From: Gordonia malaquae NBRC 108250
GTDB taxonomy: Bacteria > Actinomycetota > Actinomycetes > Mycobacteriales > Mycobacteriaceae
NCBI RefSeq assembly: GCF_000344135.1
Contig: NZ_BAOP01000018.1
Location: 1-64,000 of the forward strand
Direction of reading: 5' to 3'
Length of the DNA stretch: 64,000 nucleotides
The notes beneath the pieces were generated by a model. The model ran no database searches. It saw only the letters and a program-made list of their open reading frames with translations, and was not told the origin of the DNA. Of this stretch, positions 18,252 to 37,000 are shown one piece after another (the stretch's first letter is position 1; every line of letters begins with the position of its first letter). A program made the position numbers and the translations under genes.

Positions 18252-20621
18252 TCACCGGCGGTCGGACGAGCCGTCGCCGTCAGTCTGGTTCTCCGGCGGC
18301 CATCCGGGTGCCGACCAGTCACGCGGAGCCCCGTAATCGGGCCGCGTGCCGTGCGTGGACTGACCGTTCGGGGCGGCAGGCGGTGTCGTCCCCGGGTACA
18401 GGTAGCCCTGGCCTGCCTGTGGCTGTGGTCCGGTGGCCGGCTGCCCGCCCGCAGGTTGCCCGTACGACGGCTGCCCAGCCGGAGGCTGCCCGTACTGGGC
18501 AGGAGCACCGTACGCAGGCGGCTGCTGCGGGTACGTCTGTCCGTCGTACGCGGGCAGCGGCTGGTACTCAGGCGCCTGCTGGTACTGGGGAGCCTGGTAC
18601 TGGGGCGGCTGATTCTGCGGCGCCTGGTACTGGGGCGGCTGATTCTGCGGAACCGGTGCGACGGGCTCTGCAGGCTTCGGCGGCCATTCCTCCCCACGCT
18701 CGACTGCCAGCTCACCCGGCGTCTTGATCGGCGGCTTGGTGCTAGGCGTGCGGTCGCCGAAGACGTCGAACTTGGTGATCCGCGGACGTTTCACGACGCC
18801 TTCGAGGATCTCTTCGAGATCCTTGCGGAGCAGCGTCTCCTTCTCAAGGAGAGCGCCCGCGAGAACGTCGAGGACGTCACGGTTCTCGTCGAGGATGGCC
18901 CACGCCTCGGTGTGGGCCGCCTCGATGAGGTCACGGACCTCGGCGTCGATTTCGGCCGCCACGCCGGACGAGTAGTCCACGCTGTTGCCCATCCCGCGCC
19001 CGAGGAACGGGTCGCCCTGTTCCTGGCCGTAACGGACGGCGCCGAGCTTGGCGCTCATTCCGTACTCGGTGACCATGGCGCGCGAGATCTTGGTGGCCTG
19101 ATCGATGTCAGAGCTCGCTCCGGTGGTCGGTTCGTGGAACACGAGTTCCTCCGCGGCCCGACCGCCCATCGCCATCACCAGACGCGCAAGCATCTCCGAG
19201 CGGGTCATCAGTTCCTTGTCCTGCTCGGGCACGGCGAGCGCGTGTCCGCCGGTCTTGCCTCGGGCCAGGATGGTGACCTTGTAGATCGGGTCCAGATCCG
19301 GCATCGCCCACGCGGCGAGCGTGTGACCGCTCTCGTGGTAGGCGACGACCTTCTTCTCGTGCTCGCTGATGATGCGGCTCTTGCGACGCGGTCCGCCGAT
19401 CACGCGGTCGACCGCCTCTTCGAGCGCCTCGCCGGTGATGACGTTCTTGTGCTCACGGGCGGTGAGCAGTGCGGCCTCGTTGATGACGTTCGCGAGATCC
19501 GCGCCCGACATGCCGGGCGTGCGCTTGCCGAGACCGTCGAGGTCGGCGTCGGGCGCGATCGGCTTGCCCTTGGCGTGCACGGCGAGGATGGCTCGACGGC
19601 CCGCGATGTCCGGGTTCGAGACGGGGATCTGACGGTCGAAGCGGCCGGGCCGCAGCAACGCCGGATCGAGGATGTCGGGACGGTTGGTCGCGGCCATCAC
19701 GATGACGCCGGACCGGTCGCCGAATCCATCCATCTCGACGAGCAGCTGGTTCAGCGTCTGCTCGCGCTCGTCGTGACCGCCACCCATGCCTGCGCCGCGC
19801 TGGCGTCCGACGGCGTCGATCTCGTCGACGAAGATGATGCAGGGACTGTTCTCCTTGGCCTGTTCGAACAGGTCACGGACACGCGACGCACCGACACCGA
19901 CGAACATCTCGACGAAGTCGGAGCCGGAGATCGTGTAGAACGGCACGCCCGCCTCGCCCGCCACTGCGCGCGCGAGGAGCGTTTTGCCGGTTCCCGGCGG
20001 ACCGTAGAGCAGGACGCCCTTCGGGATCTTCGCGCCCAACGCCTGGTAGCGGGCCGGGTTCTGCAGGAAGTCGCGGATCTCGTCGAGTTCCTCGACGGCC
20101 TCATCGGCGCCGGCGACGTCGGCGAACGTCGTCTTCGGCATGTCCTTGCTGAGCTGCTTGGCCTTCGACTTCCCGAAGCCCATCACGCCGCCGCGTCCAC
20201 CGCCCTGAGCCCGGTTCATCAGGAAGAAGAACAGGCCGAACAGGATGATCATCGGGAGGACGAAGATCAGGATCGACTGCCAGATCCCCGAGTCCTTGGT
20301 GATGTTCGTCTGGTAGGTCGCCCCCGACTTCTGGGCTGCGGTGAAGATGCGCGACGAGACACCCGACGGGTACTGCGTCGTCACCTTGGTCTGGTCGGCG
20401 TCGTCGACCTTGACGGGCTTCTTCAACTCCATCCGGAGTCGTTGTTCGCGGTCGTCGATCTGAATCGACTTCACGTTCTTCGCGTCCAGCTGCGCCATGG
20501 CGACGGACGTGTCGACGCCGGTGTATTCACGGTCGGAGTTCCGCATCACGCTCCAACCCCACAGGGCGAGCAGCACCACGGCCACGATGGCGAGGTTTCG
20601 GAACAGTTTCTTACGGTTCAT
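18252..20621 (-). CDS. ftsH: ATP-dependent zinc metalloprotease FtsH
   Basis: A 789-residue membrane-anchored AAA+ protease that degrades misfolded membrane proteins and short-lived regulators. Seen: two N-terminal helices (about 8-27 and 113-135), Walker A GPPGTGKT near 206, Walker [12 protein letters not shown], second region of homology RPGRFDRQI, and zinc site HESGH near 429. The last ~140 residues are an unusual Pro/Gln/Tyr-rich tail with repeats such as [10 protein letters not shown], probably disordered and cytoplasmic; mycobacterial FtsH has a tail too, but this one is long. It heads the folE-folP-folB-folK run. Confidence 0.97.
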
Positions 20622-29439: not shown

Positions 29440-30669
29440 TCAGGCCAGTTCCGCCAGAGCGTTGAGAAGGCGATCGACGTCGTCGGACGTGGTGCCCACA
29501 CCGAAGCTGGCGCGGACGGCGCCGTCCGGATGACCCAGCTTGGCCAGGAGCGGGTGCGCGCAGAACTTGCCGTCGCGAACGCCGATGCCGCGACTGCTCA
29601 AATGCTCGGCCACAGCACGAGGCGTGTGGCCGACGACAGTGAAACTCGCGATGGCGACCCGGTCGAGGCCGTCGTCGAACGCGCGGAGCGGACGCACGTG
29701 CGGGAGCGCTGCGAGACCCGCGTCGAGGCGGCGGATCAGCACGTCGTCGTGAGCCCCGATGTTCTCGAAGCCGACTCGGCGCAGTTCGTCGGCCGCCGCG
29801 GCGATGGAGACGGCGCCGAGCACGTTCGGCGAACCGGCCTCGTGCCGAGCGGCCCCGGCATGCCATGCGACGTCGTCGATCGAGACGTCGGCGCTCGCTC
29901 CCCCGCCTGCGAGGTAGGGAGGTGCGCTGTCGAGCCAATCCGGACGACCTACGAGCACTCCCGCGCCGAACGGCGCGTACACCTTGTGGCCGGAGAACAC
30001 CAGGTAGTCGATGCCGAAGCTCGCTATCGACACCCCGCGGTGCGCCACCAGCTGAGCCGCGTCGACGAGAATTCTGGCCCCGTGGCGATGCGCCAAACCT
30101 GCGAGGCGTGCGAGCGGGAGCACCTCGCCGGTCACGTTCGACGCAGCGGTGACGGCGAGGAGCGCAGCGGGCGCCGACGCGAGTTCGTCCTCGAGAGCGG
30201 CGAGCGTGGCGTCGATCGTCGACTGCGATTCGACGATGCGGGCCCGACCGGTGCGCGTCCACGGCAGCAGGTTGGCGTGATGCTCGATGTCGAGGACGAC
30301 CACGTCGCCCGGCACGATCGATGCGGCGAGGTTGATCGAGTCGGTGGTGTTGCGGGTGAACACGACGGTGTCGTCCGCACGACCGCCGACAAACGTCCGG
30401 ACCGTTTCTCTGGCCTGCTCGTAGCGGGCCGTCGTGACCTGCGACAGGTGACCTGCACCGCGGTGCACGCTCGCGTACTCCGCGAGCGCACCCGCGAGTC
30501 GATCCGCGACTGCGGTCAACGCGGGAGCAGACGCCGCGTAGTCGAGATTGGCGTACGCGACGCCCCCGGAGTGTCCGGTAGCGGGCACCGTGACATCGGC
30601 GCCCACCACCGGGGCCAGAGCGAGAACAGAGGCAGGACGGCACACGGGCGCGTCGAGAACAGCGGTCAT
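29440..30669 (-). CDS. class V aminotransferase, cysteine-desulfurase-like
   Basis: A 409-residue PLP enzyme of fold type I. Seen: HRGAGHLSQVTTARYEQARE, TRNTTDSINL, DIEHHANLLPW, VDAAQLVAHRGV, and the PLP lysine in FSGHKVYAPFGAG. It resembles SufS/CsdA-type enzymes in this backbone; FCAHPLL near the C-terminus may carry the substrate cysteine, but the RxGxxCA loop of true SufS is only loosely matched. The ATG at 30669 has AAGGAG 8 bases upstream. A SAM-IV riboswitch precedes it, so its job is probably in sulfur or methionine metabolism. True reaction uncertain. Confidence 0.85.
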   Translation of the reverse strand: MTAVLDAPVCRPASVLALAPVVGADVTVPATGHSGGVAYANLDYAASAPALTAVADRLAGALAEYASVHRGAGHLSQVTTARYEQARETVRTFVGGRADDTVVFTRNTTDSINLAASIVPGDVVVLDIEHHANLLPWTRTGRARIVESQSTIDATLAALEDELASAPAALLAVTAASNVTGEVLPLARLAGLAHRHGARILVDAAQLVAHRGVSIASFGIDYLVFSGHKVYAPFGAGVLVGRPDWLDSAPPYLAGGGASADVSIDDVAWHAGAARHEAGSPNVLGAVSIAAAADELRRVGFENIGAHDDVLIRRLDAGLAALPHVRPLRAFDDGLDRVAIASFTVVGHTPRAVAEHLSSRGIGVRDGKFCAHPLLAKLGHPDGAVRASFGVGTTSDDVDRLLNALAELA

Positions 30670-30684
30670 GGTGAAGACTCCTTG

Positions 30685-30799
30685 AAAATCGCGCTTGCCG
30701 CGCACTCCTTGCGCGCGGCCAGGTCGTCACCCGGAGCACCCCACCGCGGAGGAGGGTTGCCGACCAGCTAGCCGGGGCTTGTCGCTGATACTCGTGACC
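30685..30799 (-). promoter_or_regulatory. SAM-IV riboswitch
   Basis: Read on the minus strand, the leader from 30799 down to about 30685 follows the actinobacterial SAM-IV aptamer almost element by element: GGTCACGAGTATCAGCG, then CAAGCCCCGGCTAGCTGG, CGGCAACCCTCCTCCGCGG, TGGGGTGCTCCGGGTGACGACC (pairing with the 5' end), and the 3' arm GCGGCAAGCGCG that ends in a pseudoknot region. It ends about 15 bases before the ATG of the PLP enzyme and overlaps the region of its ribosome binding site, so SAM binding probably blocks translation. Confidence 0.9.
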
Positions 30800-30971: not shown

Positions 30972-31763
30972 GTGACGTATCCGCAGGACCCGCGCTTCGG
31001 CCACCCTGGCAGCCCGGCGGACCCGCGCGCACGGCCGGGCTTCGGCGGTCCGGCGGCGCAGGCGCCCCGTCAGTACACGCCTCCCCAATACGCACCTCCG
31101 CAGTACGGGCAGCAACCCCCGCAGTTCGGCCCGGCGCAGTTCGGCCCGCCCAATCAGTTCGGCCCACCCAACCCGTTCGGGTACCCGCCGCTTCCGAAGA
31201 AGTCGCGGACCGGGCTGATCGTCGGCCTCACCGCGCTGGTCGCGGTGATCGGCGTCGGGGTCGGCGTACTCATCTGGCAGCCACGGAAGTCCGAGGCAGA
31301 ATCCGGCCCGCACACCGAGACCGCGATGCTCAACGACAGCATCGCCCTCACCGTCGAAGTCCCGGAGGGGTGGACGCTCACCACCGGCACCATTGAGGAC
31401 AAGAACGTGACGATGATCGTCCCCGACTCCGAGACCCGCTCCCCGGACCAGATCGACTCCGACGGAAAGTCGCTCGCCAGCGGCGGCCGAGGCGTACCGA
31501 TCCACGCGCTCATCGCCCGATCCGGGACGTGCCCGCGCGACGAGTCCCTGCAATTGGGCACGTGGACGCAGGACGTCGACAACAGCTCGTCGCATGCCAA
31601 GGCATCGCGCCGCGGTGCGACCACCCGGGTCGACGACACACACTGTGTCCGCGTGGTCGGCGTCGATTTTGCGCACTCTGCGGACACGCTCAGCACGGAG
31701 GCGTCCGAACTGCTTCCCGAACTCGTCAACAAAGAGAAGATCACCGCCGCCCGCGCGGTCTGA
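30972..31763 (+). CDS. membrane-anchored exported protein, first gene of the SPFH operon
   Basis: A 263-residue protein: Pro/Gln/Tyr-rich cytoplasmic N-terminus of about 75 residues (repeats like PPQYAPPQYGQQPP), one helix (about 80-102, GLIVGLTALVAVIGVGVGVL), and an extracytoplasmic domain with two cysteines (RSGTCPRD and DTHCVRV). It uses a GTG start with GGAAGG about 9 bases upstream. It precedes the SPFH gene by 31 bp in the same direction. It is a likely distant paralog of the protein at 28697. No named family recognised. Confidence 0.72.
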   Translation: MTYPQDPRFGHPGSPADPRARPGFGGPAAQAPRQYTPPQYAPPQYGQQPPQFGPAQFGPPNQFGPPNPFGYPPLPKKSRTGLIVGLTALVAVIGVGVGVLIWQPRKSEAESGPHTETAMLNDSIALTVEVPEGWTLTTGTIEDKNVTMIVPDSETRSPDQIDSDGKSLASGGRGVPIHALIARSGTCPRDESLQLGTWTQDVDNSSSHAKASRRGATTRVDDTHCVRVVGVDFAHSADTLSTEASELLPELVNKEKITAARAV

Positions 31764-31794
31764 CCTGCACACCATCTGCGAACGGAGACTTCAC

Positions 31795-32943
31795 ATGGGC
31801 ATCATCGGCAAGATGCGTGGCGAACTCGTCGACATCATCGAATGGGTCGACGACTCGCGTTCCACCCTCGCGTGGCGCTTCCCGCGCTACAACAACGAGA
31901 TCAAGAACGGCGCTCAGCTGATCGTGCGCGAGGGCCAGCAGGCGGTGTTCGTGTACCGCGGGCAGCTCGCCGACACCTTCGAGCCGGGCCACTACGAGCT
32001 GACTTCCGAGAACCTGCCGATCATGAGCACGATCCAGGGGTGGAAGCACGGGTTCAACAGCCCGTTCCGCAGCGAGGTGTACTTCATCAACCGCAGGCCA
32101 GTCACCGACCTGCGCTGGGGCACGCCCAACCCGATCACGTTGCGCGATCCCGACTTCGGCATGGTCCAGGTCCGCGCCAACGGACTGTGCGTCATCCGCA
32201 TCGCCGACCCGGCGATCTTCCTCCGCGAAGTGATCGGCGCCGACAGCCAGGTGAACGCCGACGAGATCGCCGAACTGCTGCGTCGCGTCATCTCCACAGC
32301 GTTCTCGGACATGATCCTCGAGACCGGAGTCGGGGCGATCGACCTGCAGGGCAAGCAGGTGGAACTCAGCGACAAGCTCCGCGAATACGTGCAGACCCGC
32401 GTCGACGACGAGTACGGACTGGCCATCGAGTCGGTGACGATGAACATCTCGCTGCCCGACGAGATCACCGCCGCGATGACCCGCGGTGTCGCCCGAGGTG
32501 TCGAAGAACGCGGCTTCCTCAACAACGTCGGCGACATGAATCGCTTCCAGCAGGGTCGTGCGGGCGACGCCATGCTCGCCGCCGCCCAGAATCCCGGCGG
32601 AGGCACCGCGGGCGACATGATGGGCATGGGCGTCGGGATGGCGATGGCCGGGCAGTTCGCCAACCAGTTCAATCAGCAGCAACAGCAGCAGGCGCCTGCC
32701 GGGCCGCCACCCGTTCCGTCGGCACAGACGTTCCACGTGGATCAGAACGGCACCGCCGCAGGCCCGTTCACGATCGACCAATTGCGCGGCTCACTCACGC
32801 CGACCACACTCGTCTGGTCCCAGGGCATGGCCGGCTGGACGCAGGCGGGCCAAGTTCCGGCACTCGCACCGCTGTTCGCCCCGGCCGGGCCTCCGCCCCT
32901 GCCGCCGCAGGCTCCGCCCGCACCCCCTGCGCCCGGGCAGTGA
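31795..32943 (+). CDS. SPFH-domain protein with C-terminal GYF_2 domain (YdjI-like)
   Basis: A 382-residue protein. Residues 1-270 are an SPFH/band-7 domain of the subgroup sometimes named 'virion core protein' (GIIGKMRGELVDIIEWVDDS, VREGQQAVFVYRGQLADTFEPGHY, GVAIDLQGK-type segment). A Gln/Gly/Met-rich linker follows, then a GYF_2 domain near 318-365 (GPFTIDQLRGSLTPTTLVW). The N-terminus has no membrane helix, so it may associate with the membrane through partners. Bacillus subtilis YdjI has the same SPFH type and works next to PspA and YdjG. Here it is the second gene of a five-gene run. Confidence 0.85.
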   Translation: MGIIGKMRGELVDIIEWVDDSRSTLAWRFPRYNNEIKNGAQLIVREGQQAVFVYRGQLADTFEPGHYELTSENLPIMSTIQGWKHGFNSPFRSEVYFINRRPVTDLRWGTPNPITLRDPDFGMVQVRANGLCVIRIADPAIFLREVIGADSQVNADEIAELLRRVISTAFSDMILETGVGAIDLQGKQVELSDKLREYVQTRVDDEYGLAIESVTMNISLPDEITAAMTRGVARGVEERGFLNNVGDMNRFQQGRAGDAMLAAAQNPGGGTAGDMMGMGVGMAMAGQFANQFNQQQQQQAPAGPPPVPSAQTFHVDQNGTAAGPFTIDQLRGSLTPTTLVWSQGMAGWTQAGQVPALAPLFAPAGPPPLPPQAPPAPPAPGQ

Positions 32944-32947
32944 CCCG

Positions 32948-34171
32948 ATGACCCAACCGCCACCCATCCCGCCGACCGGCGGGCCCTCTGGCGCGCCACC
33001 GCCGATCCCGAGGGCCGCCGCGCCTGTGCCCGCACCGCCCTCGACACCCAACGCCGCCGACCGTGCGCAGCGTCAGGTGACCGAGCAGACCCGCACCTAC
33101 CCGTGCGGGAACTGCGGGGCACCGCTCGCATTCGTCCCCGAGCGGCAGTGTCTCGGCTGTTCGTCGTGCGGAACGTCGTACCCGATCGAATTGGATCAGT
33201 CGGCGCGCATCGTCAAACACGACCTGCAGTCGACGATGAACCAGCTCGCTCAGCGGGCGCCCCTCGGCCTCGCGTCGATCGGCGGAAACGAACACGTCGT
33301 CACGTGTCAGGCGTGCGGCGGCAAGACCATCTTCAACGGCAGCCTCACCGCAACCCGCTGCCCGTACTGCGCCACTCCGATTCAGCGCGACGACGTCCAG
33401 GACGCTCCCGAGCGTCTCGCGTTGGACGCCGTCCTGCCGCTGCAGGTCGGCGAGCCACAGGCCCGCGACTCGATCGAGAAGTGGATCAACAGCCGCTGGT
33501 TCGCACCGACCGAGTTCAAGAAGTATCGGACGCTCGGTTCGTTCACCAGCGTCTACATGTCGTATTACACCTACGACGTCGAGGCGACTACCGGCTACTC
33601 CGGGCAGCGAGGCGACAATTACACCGTCGTCGTCGGATCGGGCGACAACCAGCACACTGAGACACGCATCGCCTGGCGGTCGGTGTCCGGGGTGGTCCAC
33701 AACAGCATTCGCGACCTGCCCGAACTCGCCAACACCGGAATGGACGAGCCGCGCGTGCGGGAGCTCGAACCGTGGCCGATCCAGGCAGCGGTGCCGTACA
33801 CGCCGGAGTTCGTCGCGGGACATCTGTCTCGGACCTACGACCGCGACCCGGGCGACGTGTTCGACCGCGACGCCCGCCCGCGCGTCGACGCCCAGGTGGA
33901 GAGCACCATCCGCTACGACATCGGCGGCGACCACCAGCGGATCAGCCGCAAGCAGACGTCGTTCGACATGTTGCAGTTCATGTATCTCCTGCTGCCCATG
34001 TGGCTGCTCACAGTCAACTTCGACGGCAAGCCGTTCCAGGTGGTCGTCAACGGGCTGACCGGCGAGGTCCAGGGCCAGCGACCGTGGAGCAAGGTGAAGA
34101 TCGCCGCCGCCGTCATCGCCGGGCTGATCCTGATCGGCGTCATCGTGTTCCTGTATCAGAGGATGAGGTAA
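32948..34171 (+). CDS. double zinc-ribbon membrane protein (YdjG-like)
   Basis: A 407-residue protein. A Pro-rich N-terminus is followed by two zinc ribbons: CGNCGAP...CLGCSSCGTS at about residues 52-78 and CQACGGK...CPYCATP at about 119-142. A middle domain of about 150 residues follows, then a membrane helix near the end (IAAAVIAGLILIGVIVFLYQ); FMYLLLPMWLLTV near 345 may be a second. The order of ribbons, soluble domain and membrane end, right after an SPFH gene, matches Bacillus YdjG next to YdjI. It starts 4 bases after the previous stop. Homology of the middle domain is inference. Confidence 0.8.
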   Translation: MTQPPPIPPTGGPSGAPPPIPRAAAPVPAPPSTPNAADRAQRQVTEQTRTYPCGNCGAPLAFVPERQCLGCSSCGTSYPIELDQSARIVKHDLQSTMNQLAQRAPLGLASIGGNEHVVTCQACGGKTIFNGSLTATRCPYCATPIQRDDVQDAPERLALDAVLPLQVGEPQARDSIEKWINSRWFAPTEFKKYRTLGSFTSVYMSYYTYDVEATTGYSGQRGDNYTVVVGSGDNQHTETRIAWRSVSGVVHNSIRDLPELANTGMDEPRVRELEPWPIQAAVPYTPEFVAGHLSRTYDRDPGDVFDRDARPRVDAQVESTIRYDIGGDHQRISRKQTSFDMLQFMYLLLPMWLLTVNFDGKPFQVVVNGLTGEVQGQRPWSKVKIAAAVIAGLILIGVIVFLYQRMR

Positions 34172-34175
34172 CTCC

Positions 34176-34694
34176 ATGATCGTTGTCGTGATCCTGCTCG
34201 TGCTCGTGGCGATCGCCGGCCTTGCGACCGCGTTCGCCGTCGCACTGGCGAGATCGGGGAGGAAGTCGCAGGCAGCGGCGATCCACATCCCCGGAGTGGA
34301 CGTCGCCGTCCCCGCGTCCTGGGCCGGCTCGCACGATCCGGAGGCTCGACTGCATCGCCGGATCCGTGATGCCGCCAAAGCCCTCGACGCGACGATCGGC
34401 AACGCCGACGTCACTCAGCTCGACGAGCGCGCACGCCTGCTGATCACGGCGCGGGAACTCGATCAACGACTGGTGACCATCTGGGCGCTGCCTGCGAACG
34501 CGAAAGCCGATCCGCTGGCCGCCGTGGACCGCGGCATCTCTGATTTCGAGAAGGCCGCCGCGTCGATCACGCTCGCTCCCGGACTCGACTCCGGTCTTTC
34601 GACGCCGCCGACGCTGCCGCCGATCCCACCTCTCCCGCCCCAGCCGGCGGAGCGCCGCGACCAGCCCGAGCCACCTGCTGGTCTGGCTCAGTGA
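34176..34694 (+). CDS. small membrane-anchored helical protein
   Basis: A 172-residue protein with a single N-terminal helix (residues 2-27, VVVILLVLVAIAGLATAFAV), a charged helical segment of about 100 residues without zinc or catalytic motifs, and a Pro-rich C-terminus (PTLPPIPPLPPQP). GAGG lies 8 bases before the ATG, and it starts 4 bases after the zinc-ribbon gene. Not recognised as a known family; by position it is a partner of the SPFH and zinc-ribbon proteins. Confidence 0.65.
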   Translation: MIVVVILLVLVAIAGLATAFAVALARSGRKSQAAAIHIPGVDVAVPASWAGSHDPEARLHRRIRDAAKALDATIGNADVTQLDERARLLITARELDQRLVTIWALPANAKADPLAAVDRGISDFEKAAASITLAPGLDSGLSTPPTLPPIPPLPPQPAERRDQPEPPAGLAQ

Positions 34695-35767
34695 CCCTCA
34701 GTTCGTTCTTCTCCTCACCCACCCTGACCCTGCGAGGTTCCGGCGTGTCCGCCGAGTTCAGCAGCGTCGGGCAGGCCCACGACGCGATGGCCGCCGGTGC
34801 GGTCGCCACGGTGACCGGCGCGTTCGGATTCGACCCGACCGGCGACGCCGCGCTGATCGCGCCCGAGACCTTCGGCCCCGCCGCACCCCTGTCCGTCGTC
34901 ACCTCCGGGTTCGGTCGAGCCGTCTCCACGATCACTCCGGCCGACGTGCACGCCGACCGCGTGCGGTCCGCTCTCGCCGCCATCGGTCAAGGCCGAGTCG
35001 GCAAGGCGGTCCTCGCACGCACCCTGAATCTCCGGTTCGACGATCCGATCGACCCGGTTGCACTCGCGTCGCGGTTCGTTCCCGGCCGCGATGCGACCAC
35101 CACCACCGCGTTCGCCGTCCCCCTGGACGCTGCCGGCCGCCGTGGACACTGGTTGATCGGCGCGAGCCCCGAACTCCTCGTCCGCCGGTCCGGCCGAGTC
35201 GTGACCTGTCACCCGTTTGCCGGCACCGCGCCTCGTGGGAGTGACGCCGCATCCGACCGCGCAGCCGTCGAATCGTTGCGCGCCTCCGACAAGGACCTTC
35301 GCGAACACGCCTTCGTCGTCGACTCCTTGGTCAACGCGCTCCGTCCGCTCTGCACCGAGCTCGACGTACCGGATGGGCCGCAGATCCAGTCCACGCCCGC
35401 TGTGTGGCATCTCGCGACGCCGATCCGCGGTGTGCTGGCGGACGCCTCGATCACTTCACTCGACCTCGCAGCTCTGCTGTCCCCGACTCCCGCCGTCTGT
35501 GGGACTCCGACGACGGCGGCGGCCGAGTTGATCGCAGAGATCGAAGGCCCCCGAGACTTCTATGCGGGCGCAGTCGGCTGGTGCGACGCCTCGGGTGACG
35601 GCCAGTGGCTCGTCTCGATCCGCTGCCTCGAACTCGACGCGGCGCACACCGGTGTGACGACGTGGGCGGGCGGCGGCATCGTCGCCGGTTCCGATCCGGA
35701 CGCCGAAGTGGCCGAGACAGAAGCCAAGTTCCGAACCGTGCTGTCCGCCCTCGGCTTGTCCGACTGA
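34691..35767 (+). CDS. isochorismate synthase-like chorismate-utilising enzyme
   Basis: A 358-residue member of the chorismate-binding family that makes isochorismate for menaquinone or salicylate-type siderophores. Seen: KAVLARTLNLRF with the base lysine, GASPELLVRRSGRVVTCHPFAGTAPRG, HAFVVD, TPAVWHLATPIRG, FYAGAVGWCD and GGIVAGSDPDAEVAETEAK. The usual HPTPAV motif reads SPTPAV (near residue 264), a change that deserves attention. The GTG start overlaps the previous stop (GTGA), tying it to the SPFH operon. Whether it is EntC- or MenF-like is not decidable. Confidence 0.85.
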   Translation: MTLSSFFSSPTLTLRGSGVSAEFSSVGQAHDAMAAGAVATVTGAFGFDPTGDAALIAPETFGPAAPLSVVTSGFGRAVSTITPADVHADRVRSALAAIGQGRVGKAVLARTLNLRFDDPIDPVALASRFVPGRDATTTTAFAVPLDAAGRRGHWLIGASPELLVRRSGRVVTCHPFAGTAPRGSDAASDRAAVESLRASDKDLREHAFVVDSLVNALRPLCTELDVPDGPQIQSTPAVWHLATPIRGVLADASITSLDLAALLSPTPAVCGTPTTAAAELIAEIEGPRDFYAGAVGWCDASGDGQWLVSIRCLELDAAHTGVTTWAGGGIVAGSDPDAEVAETEAKFRTVLSALGLSD

Positions 35768-35800: not shown

Positions 35801-37000
35801 TCAGCCGAGAGCCTGGTCGAGGTCGCGGAGGAGGTCGTCGGCGCCTTCCAGCCCCACCGACAGGCGCACCATCGCATCGGTGAGACCGATCGAGGCGCGT
35901 CCCTCCGGGCCCATCGCCCGGTGGGTGGTGGTCGCCGGATGCGTGATCAGGCTCTTCGCGTCGCCGAGGTTGTTCGAGATGTCGATCACCTGCAGCTTGT
36001 TGAGGACCTCGAAGGCCCGCTCCTTGCCCGACTTCCCCGGCTGCGCACCGAGTTCGAAGGTGATCACGGTACCGCCGCCCGCCATTTGGGCACGCGCGAG
36101 ATCGTGCTGCGGATGAGAGGTGAGGAACGGGTAGATCGCGTTCGCGACGCGGGGGTCGGCGTCGAGGAACTCCGCGATGCGCAGCGCAGACGACACCGAC
36201 TGGTCGAGGCGCACCTTCATCGTCTCGAGACCCTTGAGCATGGTCCACGCGTTGAACGGACTCAGGGCAGGCCCGGTGTGCCGCATCAGTTCGCGGACCG
36301 GCCCGTCGATGAACTCCTGTGTGCCGAGCACCGCCCCGCCCATCACCCGGCCCTGGCCGTCGATGTGCTTGGTGCCCGAGTAGACGATCACGTCGGCGCC
36401 GAAGTCGAGGCCGCGCTGCAACAGCGGCGTCGCGAAGACGTTGTCCAGCACCACCTTCGCGCCTGCCGCGTGCGCCATGTCGGCGACCGCGCGAATGTCG
36501 ACGAGCGTCTGCATCGGGTTGGACGGCGTCTCGAAGAACACTGCGTCCGTCGGTTTGGACAGCGCCTCCTCCCACTGGGAGAGGTCTTCACCGTCCACGA
36601 ACACCGTCTCGACGCCCCACGACGGCAGGATCTCGTTGCAGATCACAAAGCACGACCCGAACAGACTGCGTGCGGCGACAAGGCGCGTCCCCTTCTTGCA
36701 GATCGCACCGAGTGCGACGAAGACCGCAGCCATGCCGCTGGCGGTGGCGAACGCCGCCTCCGTGCCCTCGATCTGCCGGAGGCGTTCCTGGAACATGGCG
36801 ACCGTCGGGTTGCCGTAGCGGGTGTAGACGAAACGCTCGTCTTCACCGGTGAACGCGCGTTCCGCCGCCTCAGCGGACTCGTACACATAGCCGCTGTTCA
36901 GGTACAGCGCCTCCGAGGTCTCGAAGAAGCCGGAACGCATCAGCCCGCCGCGGACGGCGAGGGTCTCCGGCGACACCCAGTCGGGAAGCTCGTTGCTCAT
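35801..37000 (-). CDS. metZ: O-succinylhomoserine sulfhydrylase
   Basis: A 399-residue PLP enzyme of the Cys/Met metabolism family that makes homocysteine directly from O-succinylhomoserine and sulfide. Seen: YTRYGNPTVAMFQERLRQIEG, ASGMAAVF, ETPSNP, VLDNVFATP, and PLP lysine in YSGTKHIDGQGRVMGG; TSHPQHDLARAQM near the C-terminus. It matches Rv0391 in type. The rhodanese gene upstream (12-bp gap) is the same neighbour as in M. tuberculosis. Confidence 0.94.
   Translation of the reverse strand: MSNELPDWVSPETLAVRGGLMRSGFFETSEALYLNSGYVYESAEAAERAFTGEDERFVYTRYGNPTVAMFQERLRQIEGTEAAFATASGMAAVFVALGAICKKGTRLVAARSLFGSCFVICNEILPSWGVETVFVDGEDLSQWEEALSKPTDAVFFETPSNPMQTLVDIRAVADMAHAAGAKVVLDNVFATPLLQRGLDFGADVIVYSGTKHIDGQGRVMGGAVLGTQEFIDGPVRELMRHTGPALSPFNAWTMLKGLETMKVRLDQSVSSALRIAEFLDADPRVANAIYPFLTSHPQHDLARAQMAGGGTVITFELGAQPGKSGKERAFEVLNKLQVIDISNNLGDAKSLITHPATTTHRAMGPEGRASIGLTDAMVRLSVGLEGADDLLRDLDQALG

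Follow-up and report, generated by a model that had tools for sequence, protein, structure and literature searches.

The roles of bacterial SPFH proteins are largely open. The closest described relatives of the system considered here are encoded by the pspA–ydjG–ydjH–ydjI operon of Bacillus subtilis. In one study, YdjI is predicted to be soluble and requires both YdjG and YdjH for membrane localization; YdjH has YdjI and PspA as binding partners, and cells without YdjI have less fluid membranes (PMC8581546). A second source gives the Bacillus SPFH protein a band-7 domain and, at the C terminus, a zinc ribbon; in its description YdjG combines a pair of zinc ribbons with a YpeB-related domain and a membrane segment, and YdjH contains a TPM domain (PMC11237479). 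Here we analysed a 64,000-nt stretch of the Gordonia malaquae NBRC 108250 genome (contig NZ_BAOP01000018.1, positions 1–64,000; hereafter, the window), in which genes for an SPFH protein, a double zinc-ribbon protein and a small membrane protein directly precede an isochorismate synthase (ICS) gene. On our best reading, these three genes form a module that is new in its GYF domain and its third subunit, and that came twice to co-expression with menaquinone genes. We consider it probable that the module is a membrane scaffold of the YdjI/YdjG-like kind, inserted upstream of a housekeeping ICS that is now its co-expressed passenger.

The locus consists of five plus-strand genes packed within 30972–35767 (Table 1), with spacings of 31, 4 and 4 bp and, at the last junction, a 4-bp overlap between the stop of the small gene and the start of ICS, which a preliminary description of this DNA had read as translational coupling. 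Both this arrangement and the proposed YdjI-like SPFH protein with an added GYF_2 domain and YdjG-like double zinc-ribbon protein agree with our analysis. The SPFH protein matched Band_7_1 (PF13421, E = 1.2e-96), a family also matched by the B. subtilis SPFH protein, and GYF_2 at residues 314–357 (E = 7.7e-14); a sequence search for solved structures returned none for it at E ≤ 0.01. Eight cysteines of the zinc-ribbon protein are invariant across 36 aligned relatives, and its structural model (predicted local distance difference test (pLDDT) 85.9) places a predicted C-terminal membrane helix at residues 382–406. The YpeB-like part of this protein is weak, with a PepSY match in 5 of the 36 members (best E = 0.0018), and its profile found only RNA-polymerase-type zinc ribbons among solved structures, at E ≥ 0.01. 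At residues 198–368 the model shows three strands of about 25–32 residues each, possibly an undescribed fold. The small protein is predicted (model pLDDT 84) to have a membrane helix and, after it, three more helices. Neither it nor the product of orf1 matched any Pfam or NCBIfam model above cut-off, and none of 24 small proteins matched a TPM model at E ≤ 0.1. The Gordonia spumicola locus L024 has an identical gene order and an SPFH protein with 97% identity. A scan for an element separating ICS from the module found no sigma-70-type promoter-like site and three terminator-like sites, every one on the minus strand, against 2.3 expected by shuffling; these results carry no weight for or against such a separation.

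Proline-rich peptides are ligands of GYF domains. The motif PPP[LMIVPF]P lies within the last 60 residues of all 103 SPFH sequences (59 actinobacterial and 44 from other groups, with many close relatives among them). It also precedes the first zinc ribbon in 37 of 57 zinc-ribbon partners from actinobacteria. The background among 945 neighbouring genes was three tails and no first-60 stretch. We infer from these sequences that the motif is a candidate GYF ligand, which may tie SPFH protomers together generally and also hold the zinc-ribbon anchor in many actinobacteria.

The distribution of the module was surveyed in 59 Gordonia genomes, G. malaquae included, with ICS called at E ≤ 1e-40. The SPFH gene is present in 15 of them and the zinc-ribbon gene in the same 15, adjacent in every one. 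ICS was found in 56 genomes, 12 with the module and 44 without it. Seven genomes (G. malaquae itself, G000, and G066, G020, G074, G054, G007 and G073) carry the order orf1–SPFH–zinc ribbon–small gene–ICS, and the 4-bp overlap between the small gene and ICS is retained in five of these loci, the other two having gaps of 9 and about 47 bp. In three genomes (G024, G049 and G057) the module stands upstream of a cysteine-desulfurase-like gene, followed by orf1 and ICS, and in five (G016, G021, G042, G067 and G051) it lies elsewhere in the genome. The genomes without an ICS at this threshold (G021, G042 and G067; loci L111, L120 and L121) all carry the module elsewhere; the third chorismate enzyme of G021 is a salicylate synthase (TIGR03494, 474.7 bits, cut-off 325.15).

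Sixteen ICS loci without an adjoining module were read, 14 from module-free genomes and 2 from genomes with the module elsewhere. In 15 of them metZ lies convergent downstream, either at once or after one to several genes (the stretch of the sixteenth ended before the metZ side could be seen), and 13 have the divergent cysteine-desulfurase-like gene on their upstream side. An empty site is present in G060 (L097), where the order is cysteine-desulfurase-like gene, orf1, ICS and metZ with no module between, and where a search for SPFH and zinc-ribbon genes found no copy of either in the genome. This site indicates that the module entered as a cassette between genes that were already neighbours; most simply, three genes were inserted between orf1 and ICS, with loss in relatives as the alternative. 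We rejected orf1 as a module subunit, because it stays with ICS both in L097 and where the module lies upstream (L005/L122, L007/L109 and L108). The conserved five-gene operon of the preliminary description was likewise abandoned: the order is broken in close relatives, with ICS standing without the module in those 44 genomes and orf1–ICS alone in G060.

In broader samples the module is uncommon, with 6 of 396 genomes in a phylum sample (G. malaquae included) and 10 of 395 in a class sample around genome G467. The first survey used exact peptide patterns and covered the best 80 of 147 loci, and it therefore missed several genomes that later searches found. Williamsia and Nocardia carry the module without ICS. 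The SPFH–zinc-ribbon pair occurs without the small gene in planctomycetes and in plasmid records from Paracoccus and Vibrio; a tblastn search of the planctomycete loci gave no relative of this third gene. Menaquinone genes near other modules were searched for with the Ilumatobacter MenG, ICS and MenD proteins only (not menA, B, C, E, H or J), and among these none stood beside the planctomycete, Paracoccus or Vibrio pairs; in L059 and L073, both from planctomycetes, ICS as query matched on the opposite strand at 31–34%. The pair of Paracoccus ferrooxidans pFER4 (L211, 3719–8437) has a TelA-type gene for toxic-anion resistance two genes upstream, a possible stress link. A complete three-gene module, again without ICS, lies beside polA in a record labelled Tsukamurella tyrosinosolvens plasmid 5 (L209, 9001–11869); with the plasmid label being the record's own, this is a mobile copy or else part of a chromosome under a wrong label. 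The gene map around the module in L020, titled Kitasatospora arboriphila, is nearly the same as that of Williamsia muralis L009, which suggests a mislabelled or contaminated L020 assembly.

The module has a second placement beside menaquinone genes in another class. In an uncultured Ilumatobacter (L023) the order is SPFH, zinc ribbon, small gene, MenG and ICS, with MenD on the opposite strand. The enzymes of this placement are assigned by TIGR01934 (MenG, 170.8, cut-off 158.35), TIGR00543 (ICS, 253, cut-off 224.75) and TIGR00173 (MenD, 336.8, cut-off 244.2). The SPFH protein was found in 13 of 221 genomes of the Ilumatobacter family (Acidimicrobiia), and 8 of these have menG and ICS directly after the small gene, with menD beyond them on the opposite strand. 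Seven of these eight placements lie on one contig, and in G590 the contig breaks inside menG; in a further genome, G591, the placement is visible from the middle of the zinc-ribbon gene onwards, at the contig start. The remaining five (G682, G689, G690, G692 and G693) do not have the module at menG–ICS: menG–ICS stands alone in four, and for G690 no ICS match was reported. Empty sites exist here too, G609 and G608 having acyl-CoA synthetase, menG and ICS with about 50–60 bp in place of the module. A tree of 59 SPFH proteins has one clade each for the seven copies from the five-gene Gordonia loci, the three upstream-placed copies and the eight Ilumatobacter copies (supports 99/88, 100/99 and 100/99, respectively). 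These clades lie far apart, some deep branches being weak, and the Gordonia and Ilumatobacter placements are separate in this tree.

The weight of this recurrence was gauged from a hand tally of 24 actinobacterial contexts in which the downstream side could be seen. These were Gordonia with ICS; Gordonia with the module two genes upstream; G016; G021/G042/G067; G051; Williamsia/Jongsikchunia; the Nocardia nova group; N. uniformis; L015; L018; L016/L019/L025; L017; L028; L032; L035; L137–L139; L141; Ilumatobacter with menG–ICS; L168; L172–L174; L202; L205/L206; L207/L208; and Tsukamurella. Modules at contig ends (L021/L203, L036 and L164) and non-actinobacterial loci stood outside the tally. 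ICS is the first or second downstream gene in 2 of the 24 contexts. The chance of at least one ICS among the other 23 is 0.6–1.5% at 1–2 ICS per 3000–4000 genes, an after-the-fact estimate that assumes the contexts to be independent and that climbs to 5.6% once a hit to any one of about ten menaquinone genes is allowed to count. In one of the other contexts (L035, 4487–6805) the module is followed after 61 bp by a gene for an iron–sulphur oxidoreductase (CCG, Fer4) of a sort that meets quinones, with a weak Nitrate_red_gam match just under the model cut-off; this is an anecdote.

These placements leave room for the tentative possibility that the module serves menaquinone supply, its SPFH scaffold stabilizing or gathering ICS and MenG (UbiE family) at the membrane and so tying quinone synthesis to membrane state. 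The eight Ilumatobacter-family placements directly upstream of menG–ICS, together with G591, speak for it, as do the same gene order without the module in G609 and G608, the separate SPFH clades and the low chance of recurrence. So does a finding from E. coli, where loss of the SPFH pair HflKC lowers IspG (log2 −2.28 in LB), UbiE (−0.92) and ubiquinone; expression of IspG restores ubiquinone, and the authors hold that the UbiE loss possibly follows that of IspG (PMC12005517). Other evidence pulls the opposite way. ICS is not beside the module in 22 of the 24 contexts, so that a dedicated quinone role is suggestive and not shown; most Gordonia genomes manage without the module, 5 of the 13 Ilumatobacter-family genomes carry it elsewhere, and the chance estimate is the after-the-fact one given above. 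A SNF2-type helicase gene with a small basic gene also recurs beside the module in two contexts, on its upstream side in three related genomes (L137–L139) and on its downstream side in G690 (L168), which means that recurrence alone is no proof of function. The stronger form, in which a mobile SPFH-GYF2/zinc-ribbon scaffold is a dedicated actinobacterial menaquinone partner, captured twice upstream of ICS (once with menG) because it stabilizes or gathers quinone enzymes, and a counterpart of HflKC/prohibitin effects on quinone and respiration, is conceivable and we advance it with reserve. The quinone-supply link of the preliminary description thus fails as a conserved operon and survives in changed form, through the separate placement in Acidimicrobiia. 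Given that placement in a distant group, it is worth testing whether membrane upkeep is linked to the supply of respiratory quinone: if the module controls menaquinone enzymes, it would offer a simple, genetically accessible system connecting SPFH proteins to respiration, for which there is so far an indirect effect in E. coli.

A YdjGHI-type system acting with PspA in trans, encoded elsewhere in the genome, is the rather doubtful alternative suggested by the domain kinship to YdjI and YdjG. The preliminary description had seen no PspA, which is true of the locus; its absence from the organism was rejected, as a single PspA gene lies on another contig (G000:C100:96915–97622), beside a ClgR-like gene. 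PspA was found in all 25 genus genomes searched for it against 6 of 25 for the SPFH family, so PspA does not need the module, and the PspA-binding YdjH has no counterpart among the small proteins. As for ICS, its assignment by TIGR00543 (229.5 bits, cut-off 224.75) bears out the chorismate enzyme of the preliminary description, and its best solved relatives are 9va5/9v0m (E = 2e-83). TIGR00543 cannot tell MenF from EntC/DhbC, and among NCBIfam models DhbC comes closest, which would allow a siderophore or salicylate role and an iron-responsive operon. We judge that role distinctly unlikely. ICS queries matched two of the four chorismate-binding enzymes of G. malaquae, and the other ICS (L118), which comes after a 2,3-dihydro-2,3-dihydroxybenzoate-dehydrogenase-like gene (258 bits, cut-off 312), appears from its context to fit siderophore synthesis better; moreover, the ICS studied here is common to 56 of the 59 genomes and, of the 10 genomes in which the module adjoins ICS or lies close to it, 5 contain no other ICS at E ≤ 1e-40. 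Gordonia is expected to make menaquinone by the classical route, and the module-adjacent ICS is presumably used for it; the MenF model NF011588 gave 93.9 for this enzyme, far under its cut-off of 488.

The account that we favour, a scaffold with ICS as its passenger, would run as follows. The cassette entered between orf1 and the housekeeping ICS in the ancestor of one Gordonia clade. The SPFH protein, which is without a membrane helix of its own, would oligomerize, and its two anchored partners would tether it to the inner face of the membrane. Its GYF domain would bind PPP-L/M/P-P motifs, both those of the SPFH tail itself and, in many actinobacteria, those of the zinc-ribbon N terminus, linking the subunits. 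The assembly may act in membrane maintenance as Bacillus YdjI–YdjG–YdjH does, with its own third subunit. ICS, a likely menaquinone enzyme, would now be translated in step with the module, most likely as a co-expressed passenger and not as a subunit. Several results weigh against this account. A pure passenger can explain the recurrence upstream of menG–ICS in another class by chance only; the motif is present in 0 of 13 planctomycete zinc-ribbon N termini, so that GYF binding of that N terminus cannot be general; neither structural model matched a solved fold in the PDB (nothing below E = 0.04 for the zinc-ribbon protein or below E = 0.9 for the small protein); and open-licence PubMed Central yielded no experiment on the module in any actinobacterium. 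The same literature held no description of the module or of its placement beside menaquinone genes. Even if the quinone link fails, a widespread three-part membrane scaffold is defined, with a GYF domain, a zinc-ribbon anchor and a new helical subunit.

Table 1 Genes of the module locus and its older neighbours in the window
Feature	Position	Strand	Remarks
Cysteine-desulfurase-like gene (SufS-like, under curated cut-offs)	29440–30705	−	Old divergent neighbour of orf1/ICS
orf1	30972–31763	+	Proline-rich N terminus, one predicted transmembrane stretch, C-terminal domain; old ICS neighbour, outside module
SPFH (Band_7_1) with C-terminal GYF_2 and proline-rich tail, 382 amino acids	31795–32943	+	Module subunit 1
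Double zinc-ribbon protein with C-terminal transmembrane helix (YdjG-like), 407 amino acids	32948–34171	+	Module subunit 2
Small protein, 172 amino acids: N-terminal transmembrane helix, three-helix bundle, proline-rich tail	34176–34694	+	Module subunit 3
Isochorismate synthase (ICS), probably menF-type	34691–35767	+	Start codon overlaps small-gene stop
metZ, O-succinylhomoserine sulfhydrylase	35801–37000	−	Old convergent ICS neighbour; NF005870 743.6 bits, cut-off 618

The window also holds an FtsH gene on the minus strand (18252–20621; TIGR01241, 845 bits, cut-off 600), at a distance of about 11 kb from the module; in E. coli, FtsH works together with HflKC.

Among known systems, E. coli HflK–HflC is also an SPFH complex, whose loss lowers IspG, UbiE and ubiquinone (PMC12005517). 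It differs in acting with FtsH, in belonging to another SPFH branch, in having no zinc-ribbon or GYF partner and in being unlinked to men genes. UbiE is of the family of MenG, which adjoins the Ilumatobacter module; this is a parallel to E. coli and not a test. Compared with MenF, EntC and DhbC, the Gordonia ICS is an ordinary enzyme, unusual in its neighbours only. The planctomycete, Paracoccus and Vibrio pairs have the same two core proteins adjacent, without the small third gene in the planctomycete loci. The closest system is the B. subtilis pspA–ydjG–ydjH–ydjI operon, which likewise combines in one operon a helix-free SPFH protein, a two-zinc-ribbon membrane protein and another membrane protein; the Gordonia zinc-ribbon protein shares with YdjG the two zinc ribbons and the transmembrane segment and, weakly, the YpeB part. 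Three defining features of the Bacillus system differ: the Gordonia SPFH protein carries GYF_2 where YdjI has its C-terminal zinc ribbon, the third subunit gives no TPM match where YdjH is a TPM protein, and the Gordonia locus holds no pspA, its module being followed by ICS. We therefore place the module as a variant of the YdjI/YdjG kind.

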